Positions 46,906-64,000 of a stretch of DNA of 64,000 nt are shown in pieces. Source of the stretch: Bradyrhizobium sp. CCBAU 53338 (GTDB lineage Bacteria; Pseudomonadota; Alphaproteobacteria; Rhizobiales; Xanthobacteraceae); NCBI RefSeq assembly GCF_015291665.1, contig NZ_CP030048.1:2170001-2234000 (forward strand). The letters run 5' to 3'. Numbering within the stretch: position 1 is the stretch's first letter; every line of letters begins with the position of its first letter. The notes below the pieces were generated by a model that saw only the letters and a list, made by a program, of their open reading frames with translations, had not been told where the DNA came from and did no database searches. Made by a program: the position numbers and the translations under genes.

Positions 46906-46919
46906 TTGATCAAGGTCAA
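46906..46919. promoter_or_regulatory. Fnr/Dnr-like box before the Crp/Fnr gene
   Basis: TTGAT-CAAG-GTCAA, one base from the TTGAT-N4-ATCAA palindrome. It is 66 bp before the start codon of the regulator, which may control itself or be controlled by Fnr/FixK. Confidence 0.65.
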
Positions 46920-46984
46920 AAAGGCGCGACGGCGGATGATGAAGAATTGAGCAACGAGATCATAATCATTTCAGGGACGAAACC

Positions 46985-47773
46985 ATGGCAGCGCCGACCC
47001 CGGTCGATCTCGACATCGTCGCCCAGATACCGGTCTTCAGCGGACTGAAGCCCGGGACGCTGGCGGTGCTTCTGGGCGAGGCCACCGTCCTCAACCTGCG
47101 GCAAGGGCGCGCATTGTTTCGGCAGGGTGAGCAGGCGCAGGCGTTCTTCGTCATCATGGAGGGCTGGATCAAGCTCTATCGCGTTACGCCTGCCGGCGAT
47201 GAGGCCGTCCTCAACGTGCTGACTCGGGGCGAGAGCTTCGCCGAAGCGGTTACGTTCACGTCCGGCCGCTATCCCGCAACGGCCAGCGCTGTTACTCTGG
47301 CCAGGGTGATGATGATCCCTGCGGATCACGTCGTGAACTGCATTCGAGAGATGCCCGACGTCGCGATCGCGATGATCGCCTCGACCTCGCAGCATCTGCA
47401 ACGGATGGTCCAGCAAATCGAGCAGCTGATGGCGCACAGCGCAACGCAGCGGGTCGCCGAGTTCCTGGTCTCGCTCGCGCCCCGTGCCAAGGGGCCGTGC
47501 CGGATCACGCTACCTTACGATAAGTCATTGATTGCCGGCAGGCTCGGCCTCAAGCCGGAATCGCTGTCGCGCGTGTTCGCCAAGTTGCGCGCCGCCGGCG
47601 TCGACGTGCACGCTTCCACCGTGGAGGTGCGCGACATGGCGCAACTCTGCAAGCTGGTGGCATGCGATCGGACCATGGCGCGTTGTCCCGTCAAGCCGAG
47701 GCCGATCTGCGCCCAGCCGCCGCGCCCGCTCGATCTTGACTCTAAATCGATGCTTGCCGGAGCAGGCTCCTGA
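46985..47773 (+). CDS. Crp/Fnr regulator, likely NnrR/Dnr of the denitrification genes
   Basis: A 262-residue protein: cyclic-nucleotide-like barrel (about 10-125; FSGLKPGTLAVLL, EGWIKLYRVTPAGDEAVL), dimer helix, and winged helix with DKSLIAGRLGLKPESLSRVF (E and SR residues that read TTGA-type half-sites). No N-terminal cysteine cluster, so no Fe-S sensing of the Fnr type; NO sensing through heme, as in DNR, is possible. The C-terminal tail has three cysteines. Place and the two identical boxes downstream suggest it controls the nor and nir genes. Confidence 0.85.
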   Translation: MAAPTPVDLDIVAQIPVFSGLKPGTLAVLLGEATVLNLRQGRALFRQGEQAQAFFVIMEGWIKLYRVTPAGDEAVLNVLTRGESFAEAVTFTSGRYPATASAVTLARVMMIPADHVVNCIREMPDVAIAMIASTSQHLQRMVQQIEQLMAHSATQRVAEFLVSLAPRAKGPCRITLPYDKSLIAGRLGLKPESLSRVFAKLRAAGVDVHASTVEVRDMAQLCKLVACDRTMARCPVKPRPICAQPPRPLDLDSKSMLAGAGS

Positions 47774-48218
47774 TCCTCGGCAGGATGCTCTCGCGCCAGG
47801 CCGCGGTGCCGAATTTCCGTTCGACGATCTCGTGGTCGGACACCACCAGCCACAGCGGTACGCCATCGCTGCGCTTTAGTTCGCCGCGATAGCTGCGCAG
47901 CTCGTCCGGCCAGTTCTCGTCGGCCAGCACGTCGGCGAGATGCGGTGACTTGACCTCGCGATAGCGGACGCGATGAAACTCCGCCGACGCGAGAAAGCTG
48001 GCGCCGTCTCCCATCTGCCAGGCGCGGCAGGGTGCGCAATCCTCGGCGCCGACATAAAGCAGCATGATGTCATGCGCGCGCGCCGGTCGGCCGAAATAGT
48101 CACCCCAGGCGACCACCATTGCGCCTGCGATGACCGCGATCAGCACGCTGGCGCCCACAAGCCGACGGCCGCGTTGCAGCAAATTGCGATCGGGCTCGGC
48201 GTCGGTCGGTGGCTCCAT
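47742..48218 (-). CDS. Membrane-anchored thioredoxin-like protein
   Basis: A 158-residue protein: one N-terminal membrane segment (VLIAVIAGAMVVAWGDYF) and a periplasmic thioredoxin fold with CAPC in GAEDCAPCRAW. It may reduce disulfides on copper or heme proteins during assembly of the nitric oxide reductase. I chose the ATG at 48218, since the alternative TTG at 48266 lies inside the regulatory palindrome. The 3' end overlaps that of the regulator gene by 32 bases. Confidence 0.75.
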   Translation of the reverse strand: MEPPTDAEPDRNLLQRGRRLVGASVLIAVIAGAMVVAWGDYFGRPARAHDIMLLYVGAEDCAPCRAWQMGDGASFLASAEFHRVRYREVKSPHLADVLADENWPDELRSYRGELKRSDGVPLWLVVSDHEIVERKFGTAAWRESILPRIRSLLRQASI

Positions 48219-48250
48219 GACGCCATTATTTCTGTTGCGCGCTGCGCCAT

Positions 48251-48268
48251 CCTTAACCGCGGTCAAGG
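48251..48268. promoter_or_regulatory. NnrR/Dnr-type palindrome in the nor promoter region
   Basis: TTAACCGCGGTCAA at 48253-48266 within CTTAACCGCGGTCAAGG. The same 17 bases occur at 58698-58714 between nirI and nirS. It fits the Fnr/NnrR layout (TTGAC-N4-GTTAA on the other strand) and stands in the divergent region of the thioredoxin-like and nor genes. Confidence 0.75.
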
Positions 48269-48322
48269 ATCGCTGCGGCGGAGCACGTAAATTTGGTGCG
48301 ACATCTCCGATGGAGTCTGCCG

Positions 48323-48496
48323 ATGCCGCCCATTGAAACCGATGCGCCGAAGCAGGACCGCGCCGAGCGCGTCCCGGTGATGCAGCGCATTCTAGATAAT
48401 CCGTTCCTGCTGCTGTTCCTGGGGATCACGCTGCCGACCGTGCTCTACGTCATCTGGGGGGTCATGGAAGTCGCTTCCATTCCGCTGGCCAAATAA
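48323..48496 (+). CDS. Small single-span membrane protein of the nor operon
   Basis: A 57-residue protein with one membrane segment (PFLLLFLGITLPTVLYVIWG). It begins about 60 bp after the palindrome and is followed by the CuA subunit 59 bp later. Probably a small subunit or assembly factor of the reductase. No named family. Confidence 0.65.
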   Translation: MPPIETDAPKQDRAERVPVMQRILDNPFLLLFLGITLPTVLYVIWGVMEVASIPLAK

Positions 48497-48555: not shown

Positions 48556-49131
48556 ATGGCTGCCACACCTCCCGAGCAACGGATCTGGTGGAATGAACCC
48601 ATCGAACGGGTCGAACTGATCTGGATCTTCATAGCCTTCCTGTGGGGGCTGTTCATGTTCGGCTTCATGATCGCCTGGCACTTCATCGGCCAGCAGAACC
48701 TGAGCAAGGAAGCCTATCGTATCGCGCCGACCGCCTACGAGCAGAAGGTCGAGAACTTCGCCAAGCAGTTTCAGGTGCGCGAGGAGCAGGGCATCCCTGT
48801 GGTCAAACCGAAACCGGGAGCCGACGTCTACCTGCTTGCCCGTCTTTGGCAGTGGTGGCCGATCCTCGAGCTGGAGAAGGGCCAGAGCTACCGCATCCAT
48901 CTCTCCTCGATCGACTGGCAGCACGGCTTCTCGCTGCAACCGACCAACATCAACATCCAGGTTCATCCCGGCTACGAGCACGTCATCTCGCTGACGCCGA
49001 CCGAGAGCGGCGCCTTCGGAATCGTGTGCAACGAGTTCTGCGGGATCGGTCACCACACCATGACCGGCAAGATTTACGTCACCGACAAGAAGCAGGCCGC
49101 GGCCGATCAGCGCCTGGCCGAGCAGAGGTAG
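48556..49131 (+). CDS. norS: CuA-containing subunit II of a nitric oxide reductase (NorS-like)
   Basis: A 191-residue protein: a single membrane segment (about 20-45) and a periplasmic cupredoxin with a complete CuA site, His in SSIDWQHGFSLQ and CNEFCGIGHHTM near the C-terminus. The short form with one membrane helix is unlike standard oxidase subunit II (two helices), but like CuA subunits of non-canonical NO reductases. It takes electrons from cytochrome c and gives them to subunit I, encoded four bases further. Confidence 0.85.
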   Translation: MAATPPEQRIWWNEPIERVELIWIFIAFLWGLFMFGFMIAWHFIGQQNLSKEAYRIAPTAYEQKVENFAKQFQVREEQGIPVVKPKPGADVYLLARLWQWWPILELEKGQSYRIHLSSIDWQHGFSLQPTNINIQVHPGYEHVISLTPTESGAFGIVCNEFCGIGHHTMTGKIYVTDKKQAAADQRLAEQR

Positions 49132-49135
49132 CAAC

Positions 49136-50857
49136 ATGACCGCTGAAACCGTCATCGGAGCCGTCGGCCGCCAGGCCGAATTCCGCACCTGCCAGTACAC
49201 CGGGCTGAAGGTCGATACGGCGGCGCAGACCCTGATCAAGGCCAACGCCGTCGCCGCGGTCGTCTTCCTGGCGATCGGCGGCCTGATGGGCCTCCTGGTC
49301 GCGCTGACTCGCTGGCCGGCCGTGCATCTGTTGCCGGCTGACTGGTTCTACCTGATCCTGACCGGGCACGGCGCCAACGTGCTGCTGTTCTGGATCATCT
49401 TCTTCGAGATCGCGGTGCTCTACTTCGCTTCCGCGGTCCTGCTCAATTGCCGTCTGGCGACGCCGAAGCTCGCCTGGCTGGGCTTCGTGCTGATGGTGGT
49501 CGGCGCGCTCATGACCAACGTGACGGTGCTGCAAGGCGATTCCAGCGTGATGTTCACCTCCTACCCGCCGATGCAGGCCAAGCCGAACTTCTATCTCGGT
49601 ATCGTCCTGTTCGCGGTCGGCGCGCTGATCGGCTGCATCATCTTCTTTGCGACGCTGGTGATCGCGAAAGAGGAGGGGACCTATGAGGGCTCGATTCCGC
49701 TGGTGACCTTCGGCGCGCTGACGGCTGCGATCATCGCGGTGTTCACCATCGCCACGGGCGCGATCATCCTGATCCCGACCTGGCTGTGGTCGCTTGGCCT
49801 GATCTCAGACATCGATCCGCTGATGTACAAGGTCGTGTGGTGGGCGATGGGCCATTCCTCGCAGCAGATCAACGTCTCGGCCCATGTCTCGCTGTGGTAC
49901 CTGATCGGCGCTCTGCTGGTCGGCGCCAAGCCGCTGAGCGAGAAGGTCAGTCGTACCGCGTTCCTCATGTACATCCTATTCCTGCAGCTCGCCTCGGCGC
50001 ACCACCTCCTCGCCGAGCCCGGCCTCGACGCGAGCTGGAAGATCGTCAACACCAGCTACATGATGTACCTGGCGGTGATGGGCTCGATGATCCACGGCCT
50101 GACCGTACCGGGCTCGATCGAGGCGGCGCAGCGCCGCAACGGCTTCAACCGCGGCGTGTTCGAATGGCTGCGCAAGGCGCCGTGGGGCAATCCGGCGTTT
50201 TCAGGCATGTTCCTGTCGCTGATCTTCTTCGGCTTCATCGGCGGCATCTCCGGCGTCGTGCTCGGCACCGAGCAACTCAACGTGCTCATGCACAACACCA
50301 TCTACGTCCCCGGCCATTTCCATGGCACGGTGGTGGCCGGCACCACGCTGGCCTTCATGGCGGCGACCTATCTCGTGCTGCCGCTGATCTTCCAGCGCGA
50401 GATTGTCTGGCCGAAGCTTGCCAAGATCCAGCCCTATCTGTTCGGGATCGGTGCCGCAGGTATCTCGCTGTTCATGATGGGCGCCGGCACGCTGGGCGTG
50501 GCGCGGCGGCACTGGGACATCACCTTCAGCGACGCCAACCTGTCCTTCGCCTATTCAGCGGGGGCCTTCCTGATGATGGGGCTGAACGGCATCTTTGCGG
50601 TGATCGCGGCGATCGGCGGCATCATCTTCGTCCTGGTCGTCGTCGGCACCGTGCTGTTCGGCGAGAAGATCGAGAGCGGGCACAAGCTGACCTTTCCGCT
50701 GCATTCGGGCGGCGGCGCCGTCGCTTCGCATTACGGCAGCGAGGGCACGGTCAAGCTTCCGGGCACCATCATCCTGGTCGGGATCTTCTTCGTCTGCTTC
50801 GTCCTCTACTACTTCATCAACTGGAAATATCTTTCGGAGCTGTGGCTGTTCCGGTGA
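49136..50857 (+). CDS. norY: Heme-copper subunit I, NorY-type nitric oxide reductase
   Basis: A 573-residue membrane protein with at least 12 segments. The heme-copper ligands are seen: His78 (LTGHGANVLLFW), His240 (WWAMGHSSQQ), His289 and His290 (SAHHLLAEPG), His394 and His396 (YVPGHFHG). The oxidase motif HPEVY is HSSQQ here, so the cross-linked tyrosine is glutamine. Loss of that tyrosine is the mark of NO reductases in this superfamily. With a CuA subunit, SenC and a farnesyltransferase it fits the NorSY (sNOR) type described in ammonia oxidisers. A high-affinity oxidase is less likely. Confidence 0.82.
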   Translation: MTAETVIGAVGRQAEFRTCQYTGLKVDTAAQTLIKANAVAAVVFLAIGGLMGLLVALTRWPAVHLLPADWFYLILTGHGANVLLFWIIFFEIAVLYFASAVLLNCRLATPKLAWLGFVLMVVGALMTNVTVLQGDSSVMFTSYPPMQAKPNFYLGIVLFAVGALIGCIIFFATLVIAKEEGTYEGSIPLVTFGALTAAIIAVFTIATGAIILIPTWLWSLGLISDIDPLMYKVVWWAMGHSSQQINVSAHVSLWYLIGALLVGAKPLSEKVSRTAFLMYILFLQLASAHHLLAEPGLDASWKIVNTSYMMYLAVMGSMIHGLTVPGSIEAAQRRNGFNRGVFEWLRKAPWGNPAFSGMFLSLIFFGFIGGISGVVLGTEQLNVLMHNTIYVPGHFHGTVVAGTTLAFMAATYLVLPLIFQREIVWPKLAKIQPYLFGIGAAGISLFMMGAGTLGVARRHWDITFSDANLSFAYSAGAFLMMGLNGIFAVIAAIGGIIFVLVVVGTVLFGEKIESGHKLTFPLHSGGGAVASHYGSEGTVKLPGTIILVGIFFVCFVLYYFINWKYLSELWLFR

Positions 50858-50886
50858 TGGCCGTGGTCATGCGAGAGGGTAACAAC

Positions 50887-51759
50887 ATGCGTGCGACGGC
50901 GGCGACGGCGGTCTCGCTCCTCAAGCTCAGGATCGGCGTCGCCATCGCGGCCAGCGCGCTGGCCGGGGTCGCGGTCGCGAGCGGGCCGGCATTGTCCTGG
51001 TGGCAGGTTCTCGCCCTGTCGCTTTCGATCCTCGGCGCATCCGGTGCTGCGGGCGCCTTCAATCACTACTACGACCGCGACCTCGATCGCCTGATGGCGC
51101 GCACCCGCAACCGCCCGTTCGCCAGCGGCGCGTTCGGAGAGAGCATATGGTGGCCGGTGGCGTTCGTCGGCCTGCTTGCCGTGTCCCTCGGTCTTGCCTC
51201 GCTCACGGTCGGCCACATCGCTGCGGCCTACGTCTTCCTCGGCGCCTTTACTTACGGCATCGTCTACACCGTGTGGCTGAAGCGGCGCAGCACCTGGAAC
51301 ATCGTGGTCGGGGGGCTTGCCGGGAGCTTCGCCGTGCTGGCAGGAGCGGCCGCGGTCGATCCGTCGCCGCAGGTGGTGCCGACTGTGCTGGCGATCGTGC
51401 TGTTCCTGTGGACGCCGCCGCATTTCTGGAGTCTCGCGGCCGCCAAGGGGCAGGACTACGCCCGGGCGGGGATTCCGATGCTGCCGGTGGTGACGCCCGC
51501 GCGCGCCTGGACCATGGCGATCCTCGCCCATTCCGTGGCGCTGGCGCTGATTGCGTTGTTGCCGCTCTGGTTCGGCGAGGGGATTCTCTACGGCATCGGC
51601 GCGGCCGCTGGCGGCTCCTACTTCGTCTGGACCAGCATCCGGCTCTATAGCGACCCGTCGAAGGCCAACGCGATGGCCAATTTCTTCGCTTCGCTGCTGC
51701 AGCTTGGCCTGCTGGTCGCGGGCGCGTTGCTGGCCGGCGCGGCCGGGTATTGGTCATGA
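50887..51759 (+). CDS. ctaB: Protoheme IX farnesyltransferase (heme o synthase)
   Basis: A 290-residue UbiA-type enzyme with nine membrane segments. The prenyl-binding motif is NHYYDRDLDRLMARTRNRP (residues about 59-77) and a second motif YTVWLKRRSTWNIVVGGLAG is in place. It farnesylates heme b to heme o. Its position after norY implies that the reductase carries a farnesylated heme. The frame starts as early as ATG 50857, overlapping the norY stop; ATG 50887 with GAGAGGG upstream is preferred. Confidence 0.88.
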   Translation: MRATAATAVSLLKLRIGVAIAASALAGVAVASGPALSWWQVLALSLSILGASGAAGAFNHYYDRDLDRLMARTRNRPFASGAFGESIWWPVAFVGLLAVSLGLASLTVGHIAAAYVFLGAFTYGIVYTVWLKRRSTWNIVVGGLAGSFAVLAGAAAVDPSPQVVPTVLAIVLFLWTPPHFWSLAAAKGQDYARAGIPMLPVVTPARAWTMAILAHSVALALIALLPLWFGEGILYGIGAAAGGSYFVWTSIRLYSDPSKANAMANFFASLLQLGLLVAGALLAGAAGYWS

Positions 51760-52559
51760 CTCGCGGGTGTGCCGCGCTGGGGCTGGTCGCGATGCTGACC
51801 TGCTTGTCGGTCGCATCCGCTCGAGGCGCGCCCGCCTCGCCGGCACTCGATCCGGGCGCGGCGATCACCGCCGGCGAACGGGCGCTCGGACGCGTGATCG
51901 GTGACCATCGTCTCGTGGACACGACCGGTGCCCCGCTCTCCTTGCGCGACTATCGCGGCAAGCCGCTCGTCATCAGTCTGGTCTATTCGTCCTGCAGCTC
52001 GGTCTGTCCGCCGACAACCCAGCATCTGATCGACGCGGTCAACGAGGCGGGCCGCGTCTTCGGGCTGGGGCGCTTCGCCGTGCTGACCGTGGGCTTCGAT
52101 GCGCGCAACGACACCGTCGTGCGCATGGCGCAATTCGCCTCGATGCAGGGCATCAAGCTCCCGAACTGGCGCACCGCCAGCGGCGATGCCGCGACCATCG
52201 AGGCGCTGCTGAACGATCTCGGCTTCAGCTACCGGGCCGTCGCCGGCGGCTTCGACCATCCGACCCAGACCACGATCGTGGACAGGGACGGCAAGGTCTA
52301 CCGGCACGTCTACGGCGACGACTTTCCCTTCACGATGTTCATGGAGCCGATGAAGGACGTGGTCTACGGCACCATGACGCCGTTTTCGTTTGAGGGGCTG
52401 CTCGACCGCATCCGCTTCATCTGCACCGCCTACGATCCCGGGTCGCGCCGCTACCGCTTCGACTACGGGCTGGTGTTCGGTGGCGCCATCGCCGCGTTCT
52501 CCCTGCTCGCCATGGGCGGTCTGATCTTGAGGGAATGGATGCGTTCGGCGCAGGCATGA
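51756..52559 (+). CDS. senC: SCO1/SenC copper chaperone
   Basis: A 267-residue protein: signal or anchor at the N-terminus, SCO domain with CSSVC (about 89-93) and a later copper His in GGFDHPTQT, and a C-terminal membrane segment (VFGGAIAAFSLLAMGGLIL). SCO proteins load the CuA site, here that of NorS. The ATG overlaps the ctaB stop. Confidence 0.9.
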   Translation: MTRGCAALGLVAMLTCLSVASARGAPASPALDPGAAITAGERALGRVIGDHRLVDTTGAPLSLRDYRGKPLVISLVYSSCSSVCPPTTQHLIDAVNEAGRVFGLGRFAVLTVGFDARNDTVVRMAQFASMQGIKLPNWRTASGDAATIEALLNDLGFSYRAVAGGFDHPTQTTIVDRDGKVYRHVYGDDFPFTMFMEPMKDVVYGTMTPFSFEGLLDRIRFICTAYDPGSRRYRFDYGLVFGGAIAAFSLLAMGGLILREWMRSAQA

Positions 52560-52589: not shown

Positions 52590-54185
52590 GTGATTGGCGC
52601 GATCCGCAGCGCTCTCCGCACGGGCTTCGGCCTGATCGAACGTCCGTTCGATCGGCTGTTCTCGCCTGCGCTCAATCCTCTGGCGCAGCTCGGCGCGCTC
52701 GGCTTCTTCTTCTTCTGGATCGTCGCCGTCAGCGGCATCTACCTTTTCATCTTCTTCGACACCGGCATCGAGCGCGCCTATCAGTCCGTGGAATATCTCA
52801 GCCGGGACCACTGGTTCCATGCGGGGGTGATGCGCAGCTTCCACCGCTACGCCTCCGACCTCTTGGTGGTCATGGTCGCGGTCCACCTGCTGCGCGAATT
52901 CGCCTACGACCATTACCGCGGCGTCCGCTGGTTCTCCTGGTTCACCGGGCTGCCGATCATCTGGCTGCTCTATGCCTCGGGCATCACCGGGTACTGGCTG
53001 GTCTGGGACAAGCTCGCGCAATATGTCGCACTGGTCTCCTCCGAATTGCTGGACTGGCTGCCGGTGTTCGGCGAGCCGATCGCGCGCAACTTCATCGCCA
53101 CGGGAACGCTGACCAGTCGCTTCTTCTCGCTGATGGTGTTCATGCACGTCGCGGTGCCGTTGTTCCTGCTGTTCATCATGTGGGTGCACATCCTGCGAAT
53201 CTCGCGACCGAAGGTGAACCCGCCGCGTGCGCTCGCGCTGTTGTCGCTCGCCGCGCTGCTGGCGGTCTCGATCTGGAGACCCGCACTCTCGCAGGGCCAC
53301 GCCGACCTCGCGAAAGTGCCGGCGGCGGTCGGCATCGACTGGCTGTACCTGCCGCTCTATCCCTTGACCACGCTTTGGGGCAACGGCGCGGTATGGGCGT
53401 TCCTCGGCGCATTCTCGCTGATGATCGCGCTGATGCCGTGGCTGCCGCCGCTGCGGCGCGCCAGGGCGGTCGAGGTTCATCTCGACCATTGCAACGGCTG
53501 CGCGCGCTGCGCGGAGGATTGTCCTTATGAGGCGATCCGCATGGTCAACAGGACCGACGGGCTGCCGTTTCCGACGCAGGCGCAGGTCAATCCCTCGCTC
53601 TGCGTATCCTGCGGCATCTGTGTCGGCTCCTGCCCGTCGTCGACGCCATTCCGGCGCACCGCGGATCTGCAAACCGGGATCGACTTGCCCGAATATCCGT
53701 TGAAGAATCTGCGCGAGAAGGTCGCGGCGACCGCCACCGGCCTGTCCGGGGCAGGTCGTGTGCTGGTGCTGGCGTGCGAACACGGGGCCGCCGCCGGGCG
53801 GTTGGATGGAACCGTGGTGCTGCCATGCGTGGCCATGGCGCCGCCGTCCCTGATCGACTTCATCCTCAGCCGAGATCTTGCCGACGGCGTGGTCGTGGCC
53901 GGCTGCGCCGAGAGCGCCTGCTACAACCGGCTCGGGGTCAAATGGACCGAGGAGCGTTTTGCCGCGCAACGCGATCCCTATTTGCGTGCCCGCGTGCCGC
54001 GCGACCGGATCGCGACGATCTGGGCTTCTGCGCTGGAGGTGCGCAGGGCGGAAGTGGAGATCGCGGCCTTTGTCGCAGAAATGGCCGGAAAGCCTCCGCT
54101 GCGCATGCGTTCTCCGCTGCCAGCCAGCGCCGCCGCGAAATCCGGTGAGACGCGCGAGCCGGCCGAGGCGAGGACCAAGTCATGA
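52590..54185 (+). CDS. Fusion of di-heme cytochrome b, two 4Fe-4S ferredoxin motifs and an MvhD-like domain
   Basis: A 531-residue protein. Residues 30-210 are a cytochrome b N-terminal domain with His85/His99 and His186/His200, the two pairs that bind two b hemes. Residues 215-290 add membrane segments. Residues 297-350 carry two complete CxxCxxCxxxC clusters (301-311; 338-348). Residues 388-490 resemble the MvhD/FrhD subunit, with cysteines at 396, 413, 439 and 444. This would pass electrons between quinone or periplasm and a soluble partner. GTG start with no better ATG. I know no named family with this layout. Confidence 0.8.
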   Translation: MIGAIRSALRTGFGLIERPFDRLFSPALNPLAQLGALGFFFFWIVAVSGIYLFIFFDTGIERAYQSVEYLSRDHWFHAGVMRSFHRYASDLLVVMVAVHLLREFAYDHYRGVRWFSWFTGLPIIWLLYASGITGYWLVWDKLAQYVALVSSELLDWLPVFGEPIARNFIATGTLTSRFFSLMVFMHVAVPLFLLFIMWVHILRISRPKVNPPRALALLSLAALLAVSIWRPALSQGHADLAKVPAAVGIDWLYLPLYPLTTLWGNGAVWAFLGAFSLMIALMPWLPPLRRARAVEVHLDHCNGCARCAEDCPYEAIRMVNRTDGLPFPTQAQVNPSLCVSCGICVGSCPSSTPFRRTADLQTGIDLPEYPLKNLREKVAATATGLSGAGRVLVLACEHGAAAGRLDGTVVLPCVAMAPPSLIDFILSRDLADGVVVAGCAESACYNRLGVKWTEERFAAQRDPYLRARVPRDRIATIWASALEVRRAEVEIAAFVAEMAGKPPLRMRSPLPASAAAKSGETREPAEARTKS

Positions 54186-54685
54186 GCGGGGCGCTGCGCA
54201 CGGCCGGTCGGTTCGTGGTCATCCTGGCGCTGTTCGCCGGCGTCGCCGTGTTGTCGAACTGGCCAGTCTACCACCAGATCTCCGACAATTCGGGCGCGGT
54301 GCTCCTGACCTTCGTGCACGGCGCCGACCGCAGGGGTGAGTGCCGCAGGCTCAGCCCCGAGGAGATCGCGAAGCTGCCGCCGAACATGCGGCGGGTGCAG
54401 GACTGTCCGCGCGTTCGCCGCGCGATCCATGTCGAACTCGACGTCGACGGCCGCAGCATCTTCCGGGCCGACCTGCCGCCCACGGGGATCGCGGGCGACG
54501 GACCGTCCAAGGTCTATCAGCGCTTCGTGCTGCCGGCCGGAAAGTACGACGTCGACGTGCGGATGCGCGATACCGCGCGCGCCGAGGGCTTCGACCACGA
54601 GCATCGCGAGACTGTGACGGTGGCGCCGTCGCAGCTCCTCGTCATCGACTACCGGCCTGAAAGCGGCGATTTCATCTTTCGGTGA
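54182..54685 (+). CDS. Unknown membrane-anchored protein of the nor operon
   Basis: A 167-residue protein with one N-terminal membrane segment (FVVILALFAGVAVLSNW) and a periplasmic part with a cysteine pair (Cys in GECRRLS and in VQDCPRVRR) and a beta-rich end. The start overlaps the stop of the cytochrome b fusion, so it is translated with it. No family recognised; perhaps an assembly or accessory subunit. Confidence 0.75.
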   Translation: MSGALRTAGRFVVILALFAGVAVLSNWPVYHQISDNSGAVLLTFVHGADRRGECRRLSPEEIAKLPPNMRRVQDCPRVRRAIHVELDVDGRSIFRADLPPTGIAGDGPSKVYQRFVLPAGKYDVDVRMRDTARAEGFDHEHRETVTVAPSQLLVIDYRPESGDFIFR

Positions 54686-54695: not shown

Positions 54696-55094
54696 ATGGG
54701 CCTGTTGCACTGGGAAGACCGCTACAGCGTCGGCGTTGCGGCCGTGGACCACGAGCACCGGGAGCTGATCGAGCTGATCAACCGCCTCCATGCCGAGGCG
54801 ACCGCGCAGCGTTCCAAGGACGCGGTGATCGGCTTCTTCGGCGACCTGTTCAAGGCGATCTCGTCGCATTTCGCGCTGGAGGAGCGCTTCATGCGCGAGC
54901 ACGGCTACGACCAGCTCGTCCAGCACAAGAACGACCATGAGCGCCTGCTGGACGAGATCCGCGACCTCATGGAGGACTACGAAGCCAGCTCCAGGTTCGA
55001 CGACCGCCTGCTCGCGAACGCGCTGGATGCCTGGTTCTCCCGGCATTTCGAAACCCATGATGCCCGATTGCACAAGGCGCTTGGCGCGCATTAG
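54696..55094 (+). CDS. Bacteriohemerythrin
   Basis: A 132-residue four-helix protein with di-iron ligands in DHEHRELI, HFALEERFMREHGY, HKNDHERLL and HFETHDARLH. Hemerythrins bind O2 and, in denitrifiers, can bind or guard against NO. GAGGAGAG precedes the ATG. Ten bases after the previous gene. Confidence 0.9.
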   Translation: MGLLHWEDRYSVGVAAVDHEHRELIELINRLHAEATAQRSKDAVIGFFGDLFKAISSHFALEERFMREHGYDQLVQHKNDHERLLDEIRDLMEDYEASSRFDDRLLANALDAWFSRHFETHDARLHKALGAH

Positions 55095-55131: not shown

Positions 55132-55515
55132 ATGAAACGGATATTGACCGCCATCGCCGTCGTCGCTGCGTCAGTGAGCGCAGCGGCCGCGGAGGACGTC
55201 GCTGCCGGTGCCACCGCGTTCAAGAAATGCGTGAGTTGCCACGACGTCGGCCCGACCGCGAAGAACAAGGTTGGGCCCGTCCTCAACGGCCTCGACGGCC
55301 GCAAATCGGGATCGATCGCGGGCTACAGCTATTCCGATGCGAACAAGAACTCGGGCATCACCTGGGACGAGGCGAACTTCCTGGACTACATCAAGGACCC
55401 CAAGGCCAAGGTGCCCGGCACCAAGATGGTGTTCGCCGGCATCAAGACCGAGGCTGAGGCCAAGAATCTCTGGGCTTACCTCAAGCAATACGACGCCGAG
55501 GGCAAGACCAAGTAG
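55132..55515 (+). CDS. Class I soluble cytochrome c
   Basis: A 127-residue protein with signal peptide (cut after AAAA-E, near 20), heme motif CVSCH, KVGPVLNGLDGR and a Met ligand in GTKMVFAG. It is the likely electron donor to NorS and NirS in the periplasm. Last gene of the plus-strand nor run; convergent with apbE. Confidence 0.9.
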   Translation: MKRILTAIAVVAASVSAAAAEDVAAGATAFKKCVSCHDVGPTAKNKVGPVLNGLDGRKSGSIAGYSYSDANKNSGITWDEANFLDYIKDPKAKVPGTKMVFAGIKTEAEAKNLWAYLKQYDAEGKTK

Positions 55516-55548: not shown

Positions 55549-56538
55549 TCAACCGGCGATGCCGTCATACGGTGCTTTGGACCAGCGCAGCCTGCGGCCA
55601 TCCATGTCGACGGCCCAGATGGTGACATCCTCAAGTCTGGGCAGCAACGTCCGAATCTCGTCTGCCGACGCAATGGAGAGCGCGGTCGACAGCGCGTCGG
55701 CGACGGCTGCGGATGCGTGGTGCACGGTGATCGTGCGCCAATGCGCCGCGCTGCGGCCGCTGCGCGGGTCGAACAGATGATGCGCGGCGCCGTCGGCTCC
55801 CAGCACGCAGCCCGAGCCTTCCGACGTCGCCAGCGCGCCCCGCGCGAGCCGGATGGGCGCGGCATCCCGGCGTGCGACCAGCCAGGGCGATCCGTCGCGC
55901 CGCGGCGTCAGGGCGCGCTGCTCGCCAAGGTCGACCAGGATGTTGGTGAGGCCCTTCGCAGCGAGCAGTTCTACCACGCGATCGGTGACATAGCCCTGGC
56001 CGAGGCCGTTGAGCGTGAGACGCTGGCCGTCGCCGAGACGCAACGCGTCCCGCGCGAGCCGGATCCTGCGCCAGTCCACCGTCTGCCGAGCCAGCGCAAT
56101 CACGTCATCGGGCGGCAGACCGGTGTGGTTGCGATTTCCGAACCAATCGACATGCGCTTCCCAGAGTGCCTGAACGGTCGGATCGAACAGCCCATTCGTG
56201 AAGTCGGCGACGCCCAGCGCCAGCGCAAGCGCGCGGTGCAGGTCGCCGCTCGGCTCCTCCAGCCGGCCCTCGCGGTTGAGGCGTCGCAACTCCGAGGCGT
56301 CGCGGAACAGGCTTAGCGCATTCTCCAGGCGTTCGATCTCCGCCTCGACCAGATCGACCACCTCGCGGGCGGTCTCGGCCGCTATCCCGTTGAACAGGAT
56401 GCGCGCATCGGCGCCCATCGCCGTCCCTCGCCATTCGTAGTCGGCGGTCGCGGGACGGGCATGGCCCGCGACCGCACCGGCGGCTGCGGCTGCGAAGATG
56501 GTGATGGCGCGGCGGCGTGTCGGATGAACAGGAAGCAT
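55549..56538 (-). CDS. apbE: ApbE-type FAD:protein FMN transferase
   Basis: A 329-residue ApbE/NosX protein with a twin-arginine-like or Sec signal (TRRRAITIFAAAAAG), GTAMGADARI and the catalytic segments NGLGQGYVTDRVV, LVDLGEQ and HLFDPRSG. It attaches FMN covalently to a threonine of the FMN-binding domain of the neighbouring NirI-type protein, nine bases upstream. GGGAGG precedes the ATG. Confidence 0.92.
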   Translation of the reverse strand: MLPVHPTRRRAITIFAAAAAGAVAGHARPATADYEWRGTAMGADARILFNGIAAETAREVVDLVEAEIERLENALSLFRDASELRRLNREGRLEEPSGDLHRALALALGVADFTNGLFDPTVQALWEAHVDWFGNRNHTGLPPDDVIALARQTVDWRRIRLARDALRLGDGQRLTLNGLGQGYVTDRVVELLAAKGLTNILVDLGEQRALTPRRDGSPWLVARRDAAPIRLARGALATSEGSGCVLGADGAAHHLFDPRSGRSAAHWRTITVHHASAAVADALSTALSIASADEIRTLLPRLEDVTIWAVDMDGRRLRWSKAPYDGIAG

Positions 56539-56547: not shown

Positions 56548-58641
56548 TCACGAATTCCAGGGCGGCGCGGGCTGCGACGGCGGCTGGCGCCGCTGCGCGC
56601 GTTTCTTCAGGTGCAGGCAGACGTCCTGGTCGAAATAATTGGCCTGGCATTTCAGGCAATAGATGCATTCATTGGGGTTGATCTGGCCGAGCGGATGGAT
56701 CGCCTGCACGGTGCAGCGCCGCGCGCAGATATGGCATTCGCTGCCGCATTCCCGGTAGCGCTTGAGCCATTCGAACATGCGCATGCGCGCGGGAATCGCC
56801 AGCGCCGCGCCGAGCGGGCAGAGATAGCGGCAATAAAAGCGCTCGACGAACAGGCCGGCGAGCAGCAGCAGTCCTGCGTAGAGCCCGAACGGCCACTCCC
56901 GCAGGAACTTCATCGTGATCGCGGTCTTGAAAGGCTCGATCTCGGCAAGCTGGAACGCCGCCAGGATCGAGCGCAGCGAGATAGCCAGAATACCGAGGAA
57001 CACGACATATTTGATCATCCACAGCCGCTCGTGCAGCCCGAACGGAATTTCGATCTGCTTGATGCCGAGGCGCCGCGCGACCTGGTTGGTCAGCTCCTGT
57101 AGCGTGCCGAACGGACAAAGCCAGCCGCAGAATACGCCGCGTCCCCAGAACAGGATGCTGAGCGCGACGAAGCTCCAGAGCATGAACACCAGGGGGTCGA
57201 GCAGGAACAATTCCCAGCGGAAGCCGGAGAGCAATGCGTGGATGAAGGTCAGGACGTTGACGACCGAAAGCTGGGCGTTGGCGATGAAGCCGAGGAAGAT
57301 CAGCGTCAGCAGCATGTAGCCGGTGCGCAGCCGATAGTAGAAGACGCCGTGCGCCGTCACCGTATCCTGGAAGATCAGGATCGCCGCAAGCACCGTGAGC
57401 ATGGCGCCGAGCAGACCGATCTCGTAGCGGCGCGCCCACCAGATGTCCTGCCACAGGGTTTGCGTCGACGCGGGCGCGGCTGCAGCTGTTGCGACCTTGC
57501 CCGCCGCTGCCGGCGGCGCGGCGGCGATGAGATAGCGCTCCGGAATCCGGTACGCCAGCGAGACCACCGCGGGCCCGTGCGGCACCGAACCGGCGCCGAG
57601 GTCGAGATCGAGACGGAACGGTCTTGTCGAATCGAAGCCGCCGGCTTGCGGAATCCGGAATACCGCGATCTCGCGCAATTCCGGCGCGCCGGCGGCATGC
57701 AGGGACTCGACCGCAGTATGATCGGACGGCTTCAGACGGAACGTGCGGTTGTCCTGGACGAGTTCGATGCGGGTGAATGTTCCGGTCTGGCGCCACTCGG
57801 TGCCCTTGAACGAATAGAGCCCGCTGGCGCCGATCAGGATGAGGTCGTCCTCCGGCCCGATCTTGCCGAGCTCGCTCTCGTAGATGCGCTGGCCGAGCAG
57901 GCTCTCGCCGATCGGCGGCGGCGTCGCCAGCGCAAGCCATAGGTCGATGAACGGCTTTTCGGGCTCGCTGTCCTGCGTGGCCAGCAGCTTGGCTGCTTCG
58001 CCGCGCGACACCAGCCGGTGCTGCACCGCGCCTTCGGCGAGCAGCGATGGCCACGGCGACCGCCGCAGCGTCTCACGATCGAGACGCACGGCGCGGTCGG
58101 GCGCCATGCTGCGACTACGCAGCACGCTACGTGCCGAGCGCACGATTGCGTCCCGGATGACGGTGCTGGTGATGGTGGCGCCTGCGACTGCGTGCGGGCC
58201 GCGGGCGAGCTCGTCGGAAGGCTTCAACGCGGCGCCGGCGCGCACGTCGAAGCCGCGGAAGCCGGCGACATAGGCCGCGAGCGCGTCGCGTGGAATGCCG
58301 ATCACCAGGATCGGCTCCTCGTGAGCGACGATCTCCGCGCCGACGATGATCCCCTCCGGGGTGACGGCGGCGACGATGTCGAGTGGGCGGCCCGCGTAGC
58401 CGACCGATCCGGACACGTCGAGGCTCGAGAAGGCATAGCCGAGCACGCGTCCATCCTTGGCCCTCACGCTTGCGGCGGGTGGGGTGCCTTCGGCGCGCTC
58501 GACGGTGGCAGGCTCGGCGAAGAACGTCTCGGCACGGCCGAGATCGGCCGCCTGTGTGCTGCACATTGCGAGCAGAAGCATCGCCATTGCGCGCAGGCCT
58601 TGCAAGGCAACAGGACCGATGGTGACGATCGACGTTCGCAT
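56548..58641 (-). CDS. nirI: NirI/NosR-type membrane flavo-iron-sulfur protein
   Basis: A 697-residue protein: signal or first membrane segment, periplasmic FMN-binding domain (about 60-175, flavinylation motif GATITST near 154-160), membrane segments between 405 and 600, CGWLCP (505-510) and CRYLCP (604-609) motifs, and a C-terminal part with two 4Fe-4S groups (632-643 and 659-675). NosR serves nitrous oxide reductase; the homologue beside nirS is NirI, needed for nirS expression or NirS activity. No nosZ is in the window, and it is divergent from nirS, so NirI is the better name. Confidence 0.85.
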   Translation of the reverse strand: MRTSIVTIGPVALQGLRAMAMLLLAMCSTQAADLGRAETFFAEPATVERAEGTPPAASVRAKDGRVLGYAFSSLDVSGSVGYAGRPLDIVAAVTPEGIIVGAEIVAHEEPILVIGIPRDALAAYVAGFRGFDVRAGAALKPSDELARGPHAVAGATITSTVIRDAIVRSARSVLRSRSMAPDRAVRLDRETLRRSPWPSLLAEGAVQHRLVSRGEAAKLLATQDSEPEKPFIDLWLALATPPPIGESLLGQRIYESELGKIGPEDDLILIGASGLYSFKGTEWRQTGTFTRIELVQDNRTFRLKPSDHTAVESLHAAGAPELREIAVFRIPQAGGFDSTRPFRLDLDLGAGSVPHGPAVVSLAYRIPERYLIAAAPPAAAGKVATAAAAPASTQTLWQDIWWARRYEIGLLGAMLTVLAAILIFQDTVTAHGVFYYRLRTGYMLLTLIFLGFIANAQLSVVNVLTFIHALLSGFRWELFLLDPLVFMLWSFVALSILFWGRGVFCGWLCPFGTLQELTNQVARRLGIKQIEIPFGLHERLWMIKYVVFLGILAISLRSILAAFQLAEIEPFKTAITMKFLREWPFGLYAGLLLLAGLFVERFYCRYLCPLGAALAIPARMRMFEWLKRYRECGSECHICARRCTVQAIHPLGQINPNECIYCLKCQANYFDQDVCLHLKKRAQRRQPPSQPAPPWNS

Positions 58642-58697
58642 GGCTCGGGATCAGGCAGGGTTCGGCCATCACCGCATTGAGGTATGTCAATCCCGGT

Positions 58698-60556
<1,859 letters not shown>

Positions 60557-60566
60557 TGGGTCACGA

Positions 60567-60632: not shown

Positions 60633-61412
60633 ATGGCTGTCGGGAAGGTCTATCTGGTCGGCGCCGGTCCCGGCGATCCGGAGCTGCTCACGCTGAAGGC
60701 GGTGCGCGCCATCGGCGAGGCAGATGTCGTCGTCTACGACCGGCTGGTGCCGCCGGCGATCCTCGACACCATCGCCGACGGCGTTCTCCGGATCAGTGTC
60801 GGCAAGCAGCCTGCGCACCACCCGGTGCCGCAGGACGAGATCAACGGAATTCTCGTGCGGCTCGCGCGCGCCGGCCGCACGGTGGTGCGACTGAAGGGCG
60901 GCGATCCTTTCATCTTCGGACGCGGCTCGGAGGAGGCCGCGGAATTGGAGGCCGCCGGGATTCCCTATGAGGTGGTTCCGGGCATCACCGCCGCGCAAGG
61001 CTGCGCCGCGGCGGTGCGGGTCCCGCTGACCCATCGCGGGCTCGCCTCGGGCGTGCGCTTTGTAACTGGCCATCGCAAGGCCAACGAGCCGCTCGACCTG
61101 GATTGGCGGAGCCTCGCTGACCCCGAGACCACGCTCGTGGTCTATATGGGCCTCGCCAATCTCGAGGAGATCGTCAGGAAGTTGGTGGCTGAAGGCTTGC
61201 CGGCAAACACTCCGGCGCTTGCGATTTGTCAAGGAACGACTCCCCAGGAGCGGCGAGTATGCACGCATCTGGAGACCCTTCCGATGGCGTTGAAGGAAGC
61301 TTCCTTCAACGGGCCGGTTCTCTTCATTATCGGAAGAGTCGCCGCGATCGCCATGAAGCGTAGCGAGCGGAGCGATGCAAGAACGACCGAGGCGATTTCA
61401 GTTGTGGCCTAG
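60633..61412 (+). CDS. nirE: Uroporphyrinogen-III C-methyltransferase
   Basis: A 259-residue SAM-dependent methyltransferase of the CobA/NirE family: VYLVGAGPGDPELLTLKA at the start, VVRLKGGDPFIFGRG near 80, and GITAAQGCAA. It makes precorrin-2, the first step from uroporphyrinogen III to heme d1. ATG at 60633 is chosen over the TTG at 60582. Confidence 0.93.
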   Translation: MAVGKVYLVGAGPGDPELLTLKAVRAIGEADVVVYDRLVPPAILDTIADGVLRISVGKQPAHHPVPQDEINGILVRLARAGRTVVRLKGGDPFIFGRGSEEAAELEAAGIPYEVVPGITAAQGCAAAVRVPLTHRGLASGVRFVTGHRKANEPLDLDWRSLADPETTLVVYMGLANLEEIVRKLVAEGLPANTPALAICQGTTPQERRVCTHLETLPMALKEASFNGPVLFIIGRVAAIAMKRSERSDARTTEAISVVA

Positions 61413-61713
61413 CCTCGCATTGGCCTCGGTCGCTGCGATCGTGCCTGCGGTCGCGGCGAGGGCGGGCGGTGACGCCGCGCGGCTGGCGAGCCTGGTACGG
61501 CAGGATTGCGGCTCGTGCCATGGATTGACGCTCAAGGGCGGTCTCGGCAAGCCGCTCACCCCCGAGCATCTGCAATCCTGGAGCCGTGACCAACTCGTCG
61601 GCATCATTCTCGACGGCGTGCCGGGCACGCCGATGCCGCCCTGGCGTCCGCTGCTCAGCGAGCCCGACGCGCGATGGATCGCGGAAAGGCTGCAGCAAGG
61701 AGATCTGCCGTGA
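61375..61713 (+). CDS. nirC: Small periplasmic cytochrome c NirC
   Basis: A 112-residue monoheme protein with signal peptide (to about residue 30) and CGSCHG (about 45-50). NirC is linked to d1 heme insertion or electron supply for NirS. It overlaps nirE by 38 bases. Confidence 0.88.
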   Translation: MQERPRRFQLWPSLALASVAAIVPAVAARAGGDAARLASLVRQDCGSCHGLTLKGGLGKPLTPEHLQSWSRDQLVGIILDGVPGTPMPPWRPLLSEPDARWIAERLQQGDLP

Positions 61714-62879
61714 CCCTGAGGCTCGTTCTGACCTTGTTGCTGATGATGCCCGCCTTCGCCCGCGCCGACGGGCTGCGCGGCACCGGCAATCTCGGACTCG
61801 TCATCGAGCGCGCGACCGGATCGGCGCTGATCGTCGATACCGGGGAGCGCAAGGCGATCGGCCGCGTCGAGGGGCTCGGCGATCTCTCGCATGCCTCCGC
61901 AGTGTTCTCGCCGGACCAGCGTTACGCCTACGTGTTCGGCCGCGACGGCGGCCTGTCCAAGGTCGATCTGCTCACCGCCACGATCGCCCGGCGGATCGTG
62001 CAGGCGGGAAATTCGATCGGCGGCGCCATCTCCGACGACGGCGCGCTGATCGCGGTGTCGAACTATGAGCCGGGCGGCGTGCGGGTATTCGACGCCAGGA
62101 CGCTCGATCCGATCGCCAGCATTCCCGCCGTCGGCGCCGACGGCAGGACGTCGAAGACGATCGGGCTGGTCGATCTGCCGGGGCGGCGTTTCGCTTGGGC
62201 ACTTTATGACGCCGGCGAGATCTGGATTGCGGATCTGACCAACGTCGAGGTACCCGCGGTCACGCGGCTGACCGATGTCGGCAAGCTGCCCTATGACGGC
62301 AACGTCACGCCCGACGGACGGCACTATCTCGCCGGCCTGTTCGGAGAGGACGGCGTTGTTCACGTCGATACCTGGCAGCAGCCGCTCAAGGCCGAGCGCA
62401 TCCTCGACGGCTACGGCCGCGGCGAACAGCAATTGCCGGTCTACAAGATGCCGCACCTGGAGGGCTGGGCCGCGGTCGGCGACAAGCTGCTGCTGCCGGC
62501 GGTCGGGCATCACGAACTGATCGCCGTCGATCTGCGCAAGTTCACCGAAGTGGGCAGGGTGGCGACGCATGGCCAGCCGGTGTTCGCGGTGGCGCGGCCT
62601 GACGGCCGCCATGTCTGGGTCAACTTCGCCCATCCGCTCAACGACACCATCGAGGTCGTCGACACTGAGAGCCTCGAGGTGATCCATCGCCTGACGCCCG
62701 GGCCGGCCGTGCTGCACATGGAGTTCACGCCACGTGGTAACGAGGTCTGGGTCTCCGTGCGCGATGCCGACCGCATCGACGTCTATGACGCCGCCTCCTT
62801 TGCCAAGAAGGCGGAGATTCCGGCGCAGAAGCCGTCCGGCATCTTCTTCACCGCACGCGCGACGAGGATCGGACAATGA
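61710..62879 (+). CDS. nirF: NirF, heme d1 biosynthesis dehydrogenase
   Basis: A 389-residue propeller protein related to the d1 domain of NirS, with a signal peptide (LRLVLTLLLMMPAFARA). It is thought to oxidise the last heme d1 precursor in the periplasm. GTG at 61710 overlaps the nirC stop and has AAGGAG seven bases upstream, so it is preferred to the ATG at 61674. Confidence 0.92.
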   Translation: MTLRLVLTLLLMMPAFARADGLRGTGNLGLVIERATGSALIVDTGERKAIGRVEGLGDLSHASAVFSPDQRYAYVFGRDGGLSKVDLLTATIARRIVQAGNSIGGAISDDGALIAVSNYEPGGVRVFDARTLDPIASIPAVGADGRTSKTIGLVDLPGRRFAWALYDAGEIWIADLTNVEVPAVTRLTDVGKLPYDGNVTPDGRHYLAGLFGEDGVVHVDTWQQPLKAERILDGYGRGEQQLPVYKMPHLEGWAAVGDKLLLPAVGHHELIAVDLRKFTEVGRVATHGQPVFAVARPDGRHVWVNFAHPLNDTIEVVDTESLEVIHRLTPGPAVLHMEFTPRGNEVWVSVRDADRIDVYDAASFAKKAEIPAQKPSGIFFTARATRIGQ

Positions 62880-63862
62880 CGCCGACGCCCACCGAGCTCA
62901 GCTTGATCGATCGCTGGCAGCATGATTTCCCGCTGGTCGAGAAGCCCTTCACGGTGGTCGGCCGCTCGGCGGCCCTGGACGCGCAGGAGACCATCGACGT
63001 ATTCCGCCGCATGCAGCGCGGAGATCTGATCTCGCGCATCGGCGCGGTGGTTCGCCCGAACACGGTGGGTGCCAGCACGCTTGCCGCCATGCAGGTGCCG
63101 ACGGATCGGCTGGAGGAGGTGGCGGCCATCGTCAGCCGGGAGGCGCTGGTCACCCACAATTACGAGCGAGAGCACGACCTGAATCTGTGGTTCGTCGTCG
63201 CCGGTATCGACCCCTACGCGGTCGCGGCCACGATTCAGAGCATCGAGGAGCGGTGCGGTGTTGCCGCGATCGCACTGCCGATGCTCCAAGCCTATCATCT
63301 CGGCCTCGGCTTTCCACTCGGCGGGCCGCGGCGGCAAAAGAACGGGGCCGCAACCTCGGCCGGGGAGTATCATCCCGATCCACGCGATCGCAGCATCCTT
63401 GCCGCAATCGAGAACGGGCTGCCGCTCGTCGAGCAACCCTATCATGCAGTCGCGGATCGGCTTGCGCTCGATCAGGCCGTGGTGATCTCTCGCCTCGAGC
63501 ATCTCGTGGCTGCGGGTGTCGTGACGCGGTTCGGCTGCGTCGTCCGGCATGACAAGCTCGGCTTCAGAGCCAACGCAATGGCCGTGTGGGATATTCCCGA
63601 CGAGGCCATCGACGGCGTCGCCGCGACGTTCGCACGACATCCCGCCGTGACGCTGTGCTACCTTCGTCCGCGCCGGCTTCCGCTCTGGCCCTACAATCTC
63701 TTCTGCATGGTGCATGCGAAGTCGCGGCCCGATGCGTATGCCGCCATCGACGAGCTCAATCTGCTGGCTGACACCGGCCTGAAGCGGCAGGCCGTTCTGT
63801 TCTCGAAACGCTGTTTCAAGCAGCGCGGGGCGGTGTTCTCCCGGGGCGAGGGAGCAAACTGA
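62876..63862 (+). CDS. nirDL: NirD-NirL fusion, siroheme decarboxylase
   Basis: A 328-residue protein with two AsnC/Lrp-like halves: the first (1-160; LIDRWQHDFPLVEKPF, ISRIGAVVRPN) resembles NirD and the second (165-325; ILAAIENGLPLVEQPY, VTRFGCVVRHDKLGF) NirL. Each half is made of a helix-turn-helix part and a ferredoxin-like fold. Siroheme decarboxylase turns siroheme into didecarboxysiroheme. The start overlaps nirF by four bases and the stop touches nirG. Confidence 0.9.
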   Translation: MTPTPTELSLIDRWQHDFPLVEKPFTVVGRSAALDAQETIDVFRRMQRGDLISRIGAVVRPNTVGASTLAAMQVPTDRLEEVAAIVSREALVTHNYEREHDLNLWFVVAGIDPYAVAATIQSIEERCGVAAIALPMLQAYHLGLGFPLGGPRRQKNGAATSAGEYHPDPRDRSILAAIENGLPLVEQPYHAVADRLALDQAVVISRLEHLVAAGVVTRFGCVVRHDKLGFRANAMAVWDIPDEAIDGVAATFARHPAVTLCYLRPRRLPLWPYNLFCMVHAKSRPDAYAAIDELNLLADTGLKRQAVLFSKRCFKQRGAVFSRGEGAN

Positions 63863-64000
63863 TGCGTTCTCTGGATCCGACCGAACGCGCTGTCGTCAAC
63901 GGCCTGCAAGGCGGCTTTCCGCTGACCGAGCGGCCATTTCGCGATGCCGGCGCCGAGTTGGGCCTCAGCGAAGGCGAACTGATCGATTGTCTCGGCGGCC
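63862..64000 (+). CDS. nirG: NirG/NirH-type siroheme decarboxylase subunit, cut by the window edge
   Basis: The first 46 residues (LDPTERAVVNGLQGGFPLTE, then RPFRDAGAELGLSEGELIDC) match the N-terminal helix-turn-helix of the NirD/G/H/L family. The ATG overlaps the nirDL stop. The rest, and the expected nirH and nirJ, lie outside the window. Confidence 0.85.
   Translation, partial: MRSLDPTERAVVNGLQGGFPLTERPFRDAGAELGLSEGELIDCLGG

Follow-up and report, generated by a model that had tools for sequence, protein, structure and literature searches.

Based on our analysis of a 64,000-nucleotide stretch of Bradyrhizobium sp. CCBAU 53338 (the window; C1:2170001-2234000 of G000, the source genome, which has 8.28 Mb in two contigs and a completeness of 100), we propose that the block of denitrification genes at its right-hand side is probably a mobile, composite island that was acquired horizontally. 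It would join a nirS part to a cassette for an eNOR-type nitric oxide (NO) reductase (NOR), which replaces cNOR in this genome. The block begins with a Crp/Fnr gene (46985) and extends beyond the window, where nirN and a cbiX-like gene close it at about 68385 (C1:2238385); position 64000 is the window's edge and not the block's end. The initial annotation, which placed the block at 46906..64000, was thus right about the start, an FNR-type box (TTGATCAAGGTCAA), and stopped short at the other end. It also recognised that gene content leading from nitrite to nitrous oxide (N2O) lies in a single block. All the genes that it named are present as open frames: those for the Crp/Fnr protein, CuA subunit, COX1-family subunit, heme o synthase, SCO, hemerythrin and cytochrome c, followed by those for an ApbE-like protein, a NosR/NirI-type protein, NirS and the first d1-heme proteins. 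A fusion protein (52590-54185) and a 57-amino-acid (aa) protein were missing from its list. NirS carries c-heme and d1 domains together, and d1 biosynthesis genes accompany it.

The CuA NO reductase of the block is of the eNOR type by its active-site residues, from which its NO reductase activity is predicted. When subunit I is aligned with the Thermus ba3 oxidase, the oxidase motif H-x-x-x-Y becomes H240-S-S-Q-Q244, and the histidines at what we take to be the CuB and heme ligand positions are retained. GHxxQQ[IVM]N, with Gln at the position of the cross-linking Tyr, was found in 80 of 80 relatives (genome_contigs; the best kept of 419 confirmed), a count biased towards Gln because one of the two patterns used for the scan contained QQ[IV]N; 10 of the 80 are without that pattern. 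An alignment of 13 sequences, built from whole-genome protein searches that used no such pattern, likewise has Gln244 in every row, and Gln recurs in the Thermus thermophilus and Thermomicrobium roseum plasmid homologues. A quick tree, with long branches flagged, separates the Gln rows from the Tyr rows (Shimodaira-Hasegawa-like approximate likelihood ratio test, 100). The CuA motif is present in all 79 subunit II homologues found across the 80 loci; the similarity of this subunit to CoxB and NosZ is weak and under the cut-offs.

In published work, Gln in place of this Tyr defines eNOR, with Asn as its counterpart in sNOR (PMC8756737, Table A4 for Asn); Asn is likewise reported for sNOR and for Bacillus qCuANOR (PMC3475470, PMC8756737). 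In the metagenome-assembled genome (MAG) BS150m-G9, ba3-a1/eNOR occurs together with a cd1 nitrite reductase (PMC8879329), and our subunit I is 72% identical to the homologue in that MAG (L154), the named reference eNOR and sNOR sequences lying outside the alignment. The eNOR-type name therefore follows from the Gln in 80/80, the published definition and the match to the BS150m-G9 gene. The initial annotation had called the enzyme NorSY of the Nitrosomonas kind. The gene order of norSY-senC-orf1, with a CuA subunit, a COX1-type subunit and SenC/SCO (PMC4940428), does resemble the one found here; nevertheless, with Gln here in place of the Asn reported for sNOR, we reject this name and regard sNOR identity as highly improbable.

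That the enzyme is a high-affinity or NO-tolerant terminal oxidase, lying beside nirS by chance, seems to us quite unlikely, if less so than sNOR identity. Its closest structures in the Protein Data Bank (PDB), by sequence and by fold, are of ba3 type; the AlphaFold model of subunit I (predicted local distance difference test score, pLDDT, 68.6) is nearest to B-family oxidases, and the cassette encodes a heme o synthase. An oxidase role has also been argued for the sNOR of Nitrosomonas europaea (PMC6967387). A B-family fold with a CuA subunit II encoded upstream is, on the other hand, what eNOR itself has, and the Tyr that is present in 5/5 B-family oxidase controls (Geobacillus, three haloarchaea and the genome's own ba3) is replaced by Gln in all 80 relatives. 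Within the genus, moreover, the enzyme is restricted to nirS-bearing genomes (10/10), mostly those without norB (9/10), and the source genome already holds six other COX1-family genes.

The eNOR-type enzyme appears to be the sole recognisable heme-copper NOR in the source genome, judging from its genes. NorB, the catalytic subunit of cNOR, has no match there at 1e-60, and the same query, itself checked against PDB structures of cNOR, finds NorB in 97 of the 242 genomes of our genus sample (norC was not searched). Seven COX1-family genes are present: five with HxxxY, one of cbb3 type and one with Gln. The initial annotation held that both enzymes differ from the nirK and norCB pair; this is true of the NOR, and a nirK (C1:1246904, 537 bits, above the cut-off) accompanies nirS in this genome. 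A nosZ lies at C1:6709033 (1132 bits). With nirK/nirS, eNOR and nosZ, the genome could therefore in principle reach N2, while the block itself stops at N2O. Separately, a further NirK-like match (321 bits, above the cut-off) came from a frame of 724 aa that adjoins two oxidases, one of ba3 and one of aa3 type, at a distance of about 31 kb from nosZ (C1:6676823-6710922).

Comparison of genomes shows that the block is made of two separable modules, the NOR cassette and the nir cluster. In the 242 Bradyrhizobium genomes, subunit I (counted at about 90% identity or more) occurs in 10 and NirS in 16, and all of the 10 are among the 16. NorB was matched in one of the 10 cassette-bearing genomes (G007) vs five of the six nirS-only genomes, the sixth being G016, which is 89% complete (Fisher p = 0.008, or 0.005 without three genomes less than 90% complete; neither value is corrected for descent). 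NosZ is above the cut-off in 11 of the 16 NirS genomes: 5/10 with the cassette and 6/6 without it. The nine other cassette-bearing genomes share the gene order as far as their contigs extend (those of G073 and G096 are cut), with nirE in G206 and G230 and nirC in G006 matched in two pieces and nirI in G023 matched over 72% of its length. From the six nirS-only genomes the 7-kb cassette is cleanly absent. In five of them, cytochrome c lies no more than about 100 bp after crp and is itself followed by apbE, nirI and nirS; in G217 apbE comes within 30 bp of crp. No cassette match was found between crp and the nir-side genes in any of the six.

The cassette also occurs by itself. The enzyme was found in 14 of 296 genomes of the family sample (11 of its 47 genera; 12 of the 14 genomes outside Bradyrhizobium) and in 30 of 398 genomes of the phylum sample. 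Among the loci of the 80 relatives, norS is found in 79, norY in 80, ctaB in 67, sco in 78, the fusion gene in 72, the small conserved open reading frame (ORF) in 70 and hemerythrin in 69, and nirS was located in 20; cassettes with no nirS in the surrounding DNA read belong to other genera and to a Defluviimonas plasmid. G664, from another genus, has the same cassette flanked by crp and cytochrome c, without nirS in the 20 kb of DNA covered; in G665 the cassette is preceded by crp. These arrangements suggest that the nirS-only bradyrhizobia lost the cassette rather than never having gained it, with crp staying in place and, in 5/6 cases, the adjoining cytochrome c gene too. The earlier idea of transfer as one module is accordingly borne out as to horizontal transfer and not as to the single module. 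Besides the NirS of the block, two cassette-bearing genomes hold a second NirS, 56-63% identical: G230 (C41:126791-128380) and G096, where it lies in two pieces on two contigs (C216, C356).

The borders of the block point to a tRNA-targeted island. An intact tRNA-Lys(CTT) lies at C1:2021506-2021576, and same-strand copies of its 3' end are found at C1:2169672, at C1:2213475 (repeat B, 192 kb to the right of the intact gene) and at C1:2238496 (repeat C, window-equivalent 68496, outside the window). They match a 31-nucleotide core with 1, 0 and 4 mismatches, respectively, and no further copy with up to 6 mismatches exists in 520 kb. Repeats B (31/31) and C (27/31) are thus direct repeats of the tRNA end at both borders: they enclose the IS66 element and the block, 25.0 kb in all, and stand within about 0.35 kb of both ends of this unit, repeat C at the junction to a 13.6-kb neighbouring segment shared with a relative. 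The remnant noticed in the initial annotation is repeat B. It was missed by ARAGORN and Rfam, and a T-loop pattern gave 14 matches, no more than in shuffled sequence, two of them perfect and one of these pointing to the remnant; BLAST against the flanking DNA confirmed it. The intact IS66 that had been placed next to the block is likewise there on its left (tnpC, 43793-45421; HTH transposase, 45836-46240). Integration would have been carried out by a tRNA-targeting recombinase, with the 25-kb unit lying inside a larger tRNA-Lys island. The four tRNA-Lys 3' ends span 217 kb (C1:2021506-2238545), a composite island that includes the whole window; the left 43 kb of the window form another of its segments (C1:2169672-2213475). 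Beside the intact tRNA-Lys lies an ORF with a match to a Tle1-like phospholipase domain of type VI secretion systems (L291:11765-13297, minus strand).

Flanks of 1.7-25 kb were compared for 17 genomes on the left side and 8 on the right, and the block does not sit at one shared place; its chromosomal location varies among relatives, contrary to what inheritance in place would give. The 13.6-kb segment just right of the block in the source genome sits just left of it in G007 (79% identity), and 4.6 kb found to the right of the block in G007 recur to the left of the nir cluster in G217 (77%). Such side-switched DNA is expected from circular forms, and from tandem duplication with deletion as well. 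The only other flank matches above 4 kb are G206/G234, G063/G236 and G016/G029/G202, of which G206/G234 share flanks on both sides. Short matches (0.4-0.8 kb) occur beside crp among G006, G023, G206 and G234 and between the source genome and G030, and one of 0.5 kb occurs on the right side between G007 and G063.

Gene trees agree with this picture where the source genome is concerned. In the rpoB tree it groups with G009, a genome that gave no NirS match and none for the eNOR-type enzyme, inside a clade with five nirS-only genomes; in the nir tree it groups with G030 and G007. By approximately unbiased (AU) tests, the nir data reject the grouping of the source genome with the five nirS-only genomes (p 0.017) and the rpoB data reject that with G007 and G030 (p 0.0018). 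The nir tree therefore conflicts with rpoB for this genome, other branches agreeing, as a gene-tree comparison proposed with the initial annotation would have it under transfer. Transfer is supported by the repeats around the 25-kb unit, the neighbourhoods that differ between species, the side-switched DNA and this conflict taken together. For the cassette of G829, which nests among those of Bradyrhizobium, the rpoB test does not clearly reject the grouping (p 0.055), and we make no claim of transfer.

A rival view, in which Bradyrhizobium had the block from its ancestor, many lineages later lost it and the tRNA repeats are parts of other elements that merely happen to flank it, strikes us as rather unlikely. 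It draws on the partial agreement of the nir and rpoB trees, on the flanks that G206 and G234 share on both sides and on the presence of the enzyme in other genera of the family. It has to accommodate AU conflicts in both directions, repeats so close to both ends, one of them at the junction to the 13.6-kb segment, and a sister genome, G009, in which neither NirS nor the enzyme is matched. Several further points count against a mobile, horizontally acquired island. Repeat C is degenerate (27/31); no integrase is encoded by the small number of ORFs examined next to the tRNA-Lys copies, the 217-kb island not having been scanned throughout; and no tRNA-Lys repeat was found in the flanks of relatives scanned, all matches being to stretches of the source genome alone. 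The GC content shows no anomaly, with 0.62-0.67 per 2 kb in the block and 0.57-0.64 in the steps just left of it. The AU-test groups were picked after the trees had been seen, the species tree is rpoB alone, and G007 has both the cassette and norB. The nir and rpoB trees also agree largely, both pairing G206 with G234 and placing G230 close to the base; part of the pattern is therefore explained by ancient vertical inheritance followed by loss.

What is known of the gene families suggests the following scheme. Low O2 and NO may act via the Crp/Fnr protein. NirS, with NirI and the d1-heme genes, would reduce nitrite to NO in the periplasm, NirI and ApbE possibly assisting this branch. The CuA, B-family enzyme of eNOR type would then convert NO to N2O with electrons from cytochrome c, standing in for cNOR. 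CtaB could provide a modified heme, SCO could load CuA and the thioredoxin-like protein could aid assembly, while hemerythrin might bind O2 or NO. The features are as follows.

43475..43505, plus strand: copy of the 3' end of tRNA-Lys(CTT), att-like repeat B (31/31 nucleotides identical to the intact gene)
43793..46240, minus strand: IS66 element (Pfam DDE_Tnp_IS66 and HTH_Tnp_1, frames), with tnpC at 43793-45421, a tnpB-size frame at 45492-45839 (by frame size) and an HTH transposase at 45836-46240
46658..46873, plus strand: small ORF with CxxC and further Cys (translation)
46906..46919, plus strand: FNR/NNR-like box TTGATCAAGGTCAA upstream of crp (pattern scan)
46985..47773, plus strand: Crp/Fnr-family regulator (Pfam cNMP_binding, HTH_Crp_2; no NCBIfam model above cut-off)
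47742..48266, minus strand: thioredoxin-like protein with a CAPC motif (named by eye from the translation; no Pfam match)
48323..48496, plus strand: 57-aa one-helix protein, like the small subunit of B-family enzymes (translation)
48556..49131, plus strand: norS-like CuA subunit II (CNEFCGIGHHTM motif)
49136..50857, plus strand: catalytic subunit I, eNOR type, GHSSQQIN with Gln244 at the Tyr position (Pfam COX1, alignments, model)
50869..51759, plus strand: heme o synthase (CtaB/CyoE), start uncertain (TIGR01473, 238.7 bits, above cut-off)
51750..52559, plus strand: SCO1/SenC copper chaperone (Pfam SCO1-SenC)
52590..54185, plus strand: fusion of cytochrome b, 2x[4Fe-4S] ferredoxin and FlpD/MvhD, 531 aa (Pfam, conservation, model)
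54182..54685, plus strand: conserved 167-aa protein, N-terminal hydrophobic stretch by eye (in 70/80 cassette loci; no Pfam family above cut-off)
54696..55094, plus strand: bacteriohemerythrin (NF033749, above cut-off; in 69/80 loci)
55132..55515, plus strand: monoheme cytochrome c, CVSCH (Pfam Cytochrom_C, motif)
55549..56538, minus strand: ApbE-like FAD:protein FMN transferase (NF007774, 49.6 bits, under its cut-off of 498)
56548..58641, minus strand: NirI, NosR/NirI family (NF046105 for NosR, 669.5 bits, under the cut-off of 1000; called NirI for its position beside nirS)
58677..58690, plus strand: FNR/NNR-like box TTGAGGTATGTCAA between nirI and nirS (pattern scan)
58772..60556, plus strand: nirS, cytochrome cd1 nitrite reductase (Pfam Cytochrom_D1, 493.5 bits; CAGCH)
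60633..61412, plus strand: nirE-like uroporphyrinogen methyltransferase (named by eye from sequence and place; syntenic in relatives)
61375..61713, plus strand: nirC-like cytochrome c, CGSCH (named by place and motif)
61674..62879, plus strand: nirF (Cytochrom_D1 family match, 344.9 bits)
62876..63862, plus strand: nirDL (Pfam NirdL-like HTH, AsnC_trans_reg2)
Outside the window, to C1:2238385: nirG, nirH, nirJ, nirN and a cbiX-like gene (Radical_SAM, Cytochrom_D1 and CbiX among the families matched)

The two FNR/NNR-like boxes are consensus matches only, from a pattern scan that gave 9 matches in 22 kb. Some 150-330 bp upstream of crp lies a stretch shared by seven cassette-bearing genomes (G000, G006, G007, G023, G030, G206 and G234); it has no match in G230 or in the nirS-only genomes, G073 and G096 lying outside the comparison. 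By eye, the small ORF of this region may resemble DUF1858-type proteins. In the cassettes compared, the 57-aa protein has matches at the same place, preceding the CuA subunit, and the thioredoxin-like protein is kept in those of Xanthobacteraceae.

The fusion protein appears to be a functional relay that passes electrons from a diheme cytochrome b to an Fe-S module in the cytoplasm, because His85, His99, His186 and His200, the eight Cys of two ferredoxin motifs and Cys396, Cys413 and Cys439 are invariant in 23 sequences, and because the first part of its model (pLDDT 72.2) resembles cytochrome b/b6 and the last part MvhD; the model has no PDB match below E 0.001. In the 8 of 80 loci without it, the DNA ends within 0.7 kb of sco or norY. 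It is not a universal partner: three of six more distant neighbourhoods (L208, L211, L212; DNA read) have NOR genes without it, and none is annotated beside the Thermus and Thermomicrobium eNOR-type genes. We hold as doubtful the joint reading in which the fusion, the small conserved protein and hemerythrin form a dedicated eNOR partner, the enzyme is part of a supercomplex that converts energy, and circular intermediates carry the cassette from place to place. There, the fusion would tie eNOR or CuA maturation to the quinone pool and a cytoplasmic low-potential partner, and the cassette would be a replaceable NO-reduction module, the partner serving in many proteobacteria. If true, this would be a NOR in a supercomplex of a kind not described for NO reductases.

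cNOR is a C-family enzyme with a heme c subunit. The cNOR (NorCB) of other bradyrhizobia likewise converts NO to N2O; it differs from the present case in that NorB is without match in the source genome and in 9/10 cassette-bearing genomes. Known eNOR (earlier label ba3-a1; MAG BS150m-G9, Chloroflexi, Thermus) shares the B-family enzyme, the CuA subunit and the Gln for the cross-linking Tyr, and some genomes have it alongside a cd1 nitrite reductase (PMC8879329, PMC8756737). Here, unlike there, it is joined physically to a full nirS cluster in an island bounded by tRNA-Lys repeats, and is the sole recognisable heme-copper NOR, with the cytochrome b/Fe-S/FlpD fusion as its putative partner. In Bradyrhizobium, nirS was published in 2018: B. 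nitroreducens TSA1 and B. oligotrophicum S58 have it with nirK, and transfer was suspected (PMC6167111). TSA1 has norB, as does G217 (nirS and norB, no cassette), vs the eNOR-type NOR here. Evidence of mobile elements around those loci was sought without success (PMC6167111), whereas tRNA repeats surround the present block, which may therefore offer the physical route for nirS transfer that the earlier work sought in vain. Both enzymes and their hosts are already published singly, nirS in Bradyrhizobium and eNOR in alphaproteobacteria. In the parts of the literature searched, which did not include the main eNOR paper, we found no report of a joint nirS-eNOR island or of a cNOR/eNOR swap, nor of the fusion as an eNOR partner, which that paper may already describe.

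Annotation may hide such enzymes. The annotated names are "cbb3-type cytochrome c oxidase subunit I" or "cytochrome c oxidase subunit 1", so a nirS-bearing soil bradyrhizobium with the island would, by name alone, seem to have no enzyme for NO reduction; eNOR does figure in the reference set of some surveys (e.g., PMC12569097). Because the genus can be cultivated and this genome has no other recognisable heme-copper NOR, a single deletion could test directly what eNOR contributes to N2O formation.

Several minor observations concern related genes elsewhere. On a Thermus thermophilus plasmid (pTthSNM6-6b; L214, 8444-12052), eNOR-type genes of 44% identity are annotated as cytochrome oxidase and lie near an Rrf2 regulator, a DUF542 protein, a multicopper oxidase and a cytochrome P460 gene. 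The 164.7-kb plasmid of Defluviimonas sp. SAOS-178_SWC carries the eNOR cassette (L213, 13852-20598) about 10 kb from integrase and partition genes. In the left part of the window, a single frame (39445-40365, minus strand) combines a CtaG/Cox11 copper-assembly domain with a cytochrome c domain. Finally, MAGs labelled Saprospiraceae (L152) and Acetobacteraceae (L100) contain subunit I homologues of 73% and 83% identity, which could reflect either transfer or mis-binned contigs.

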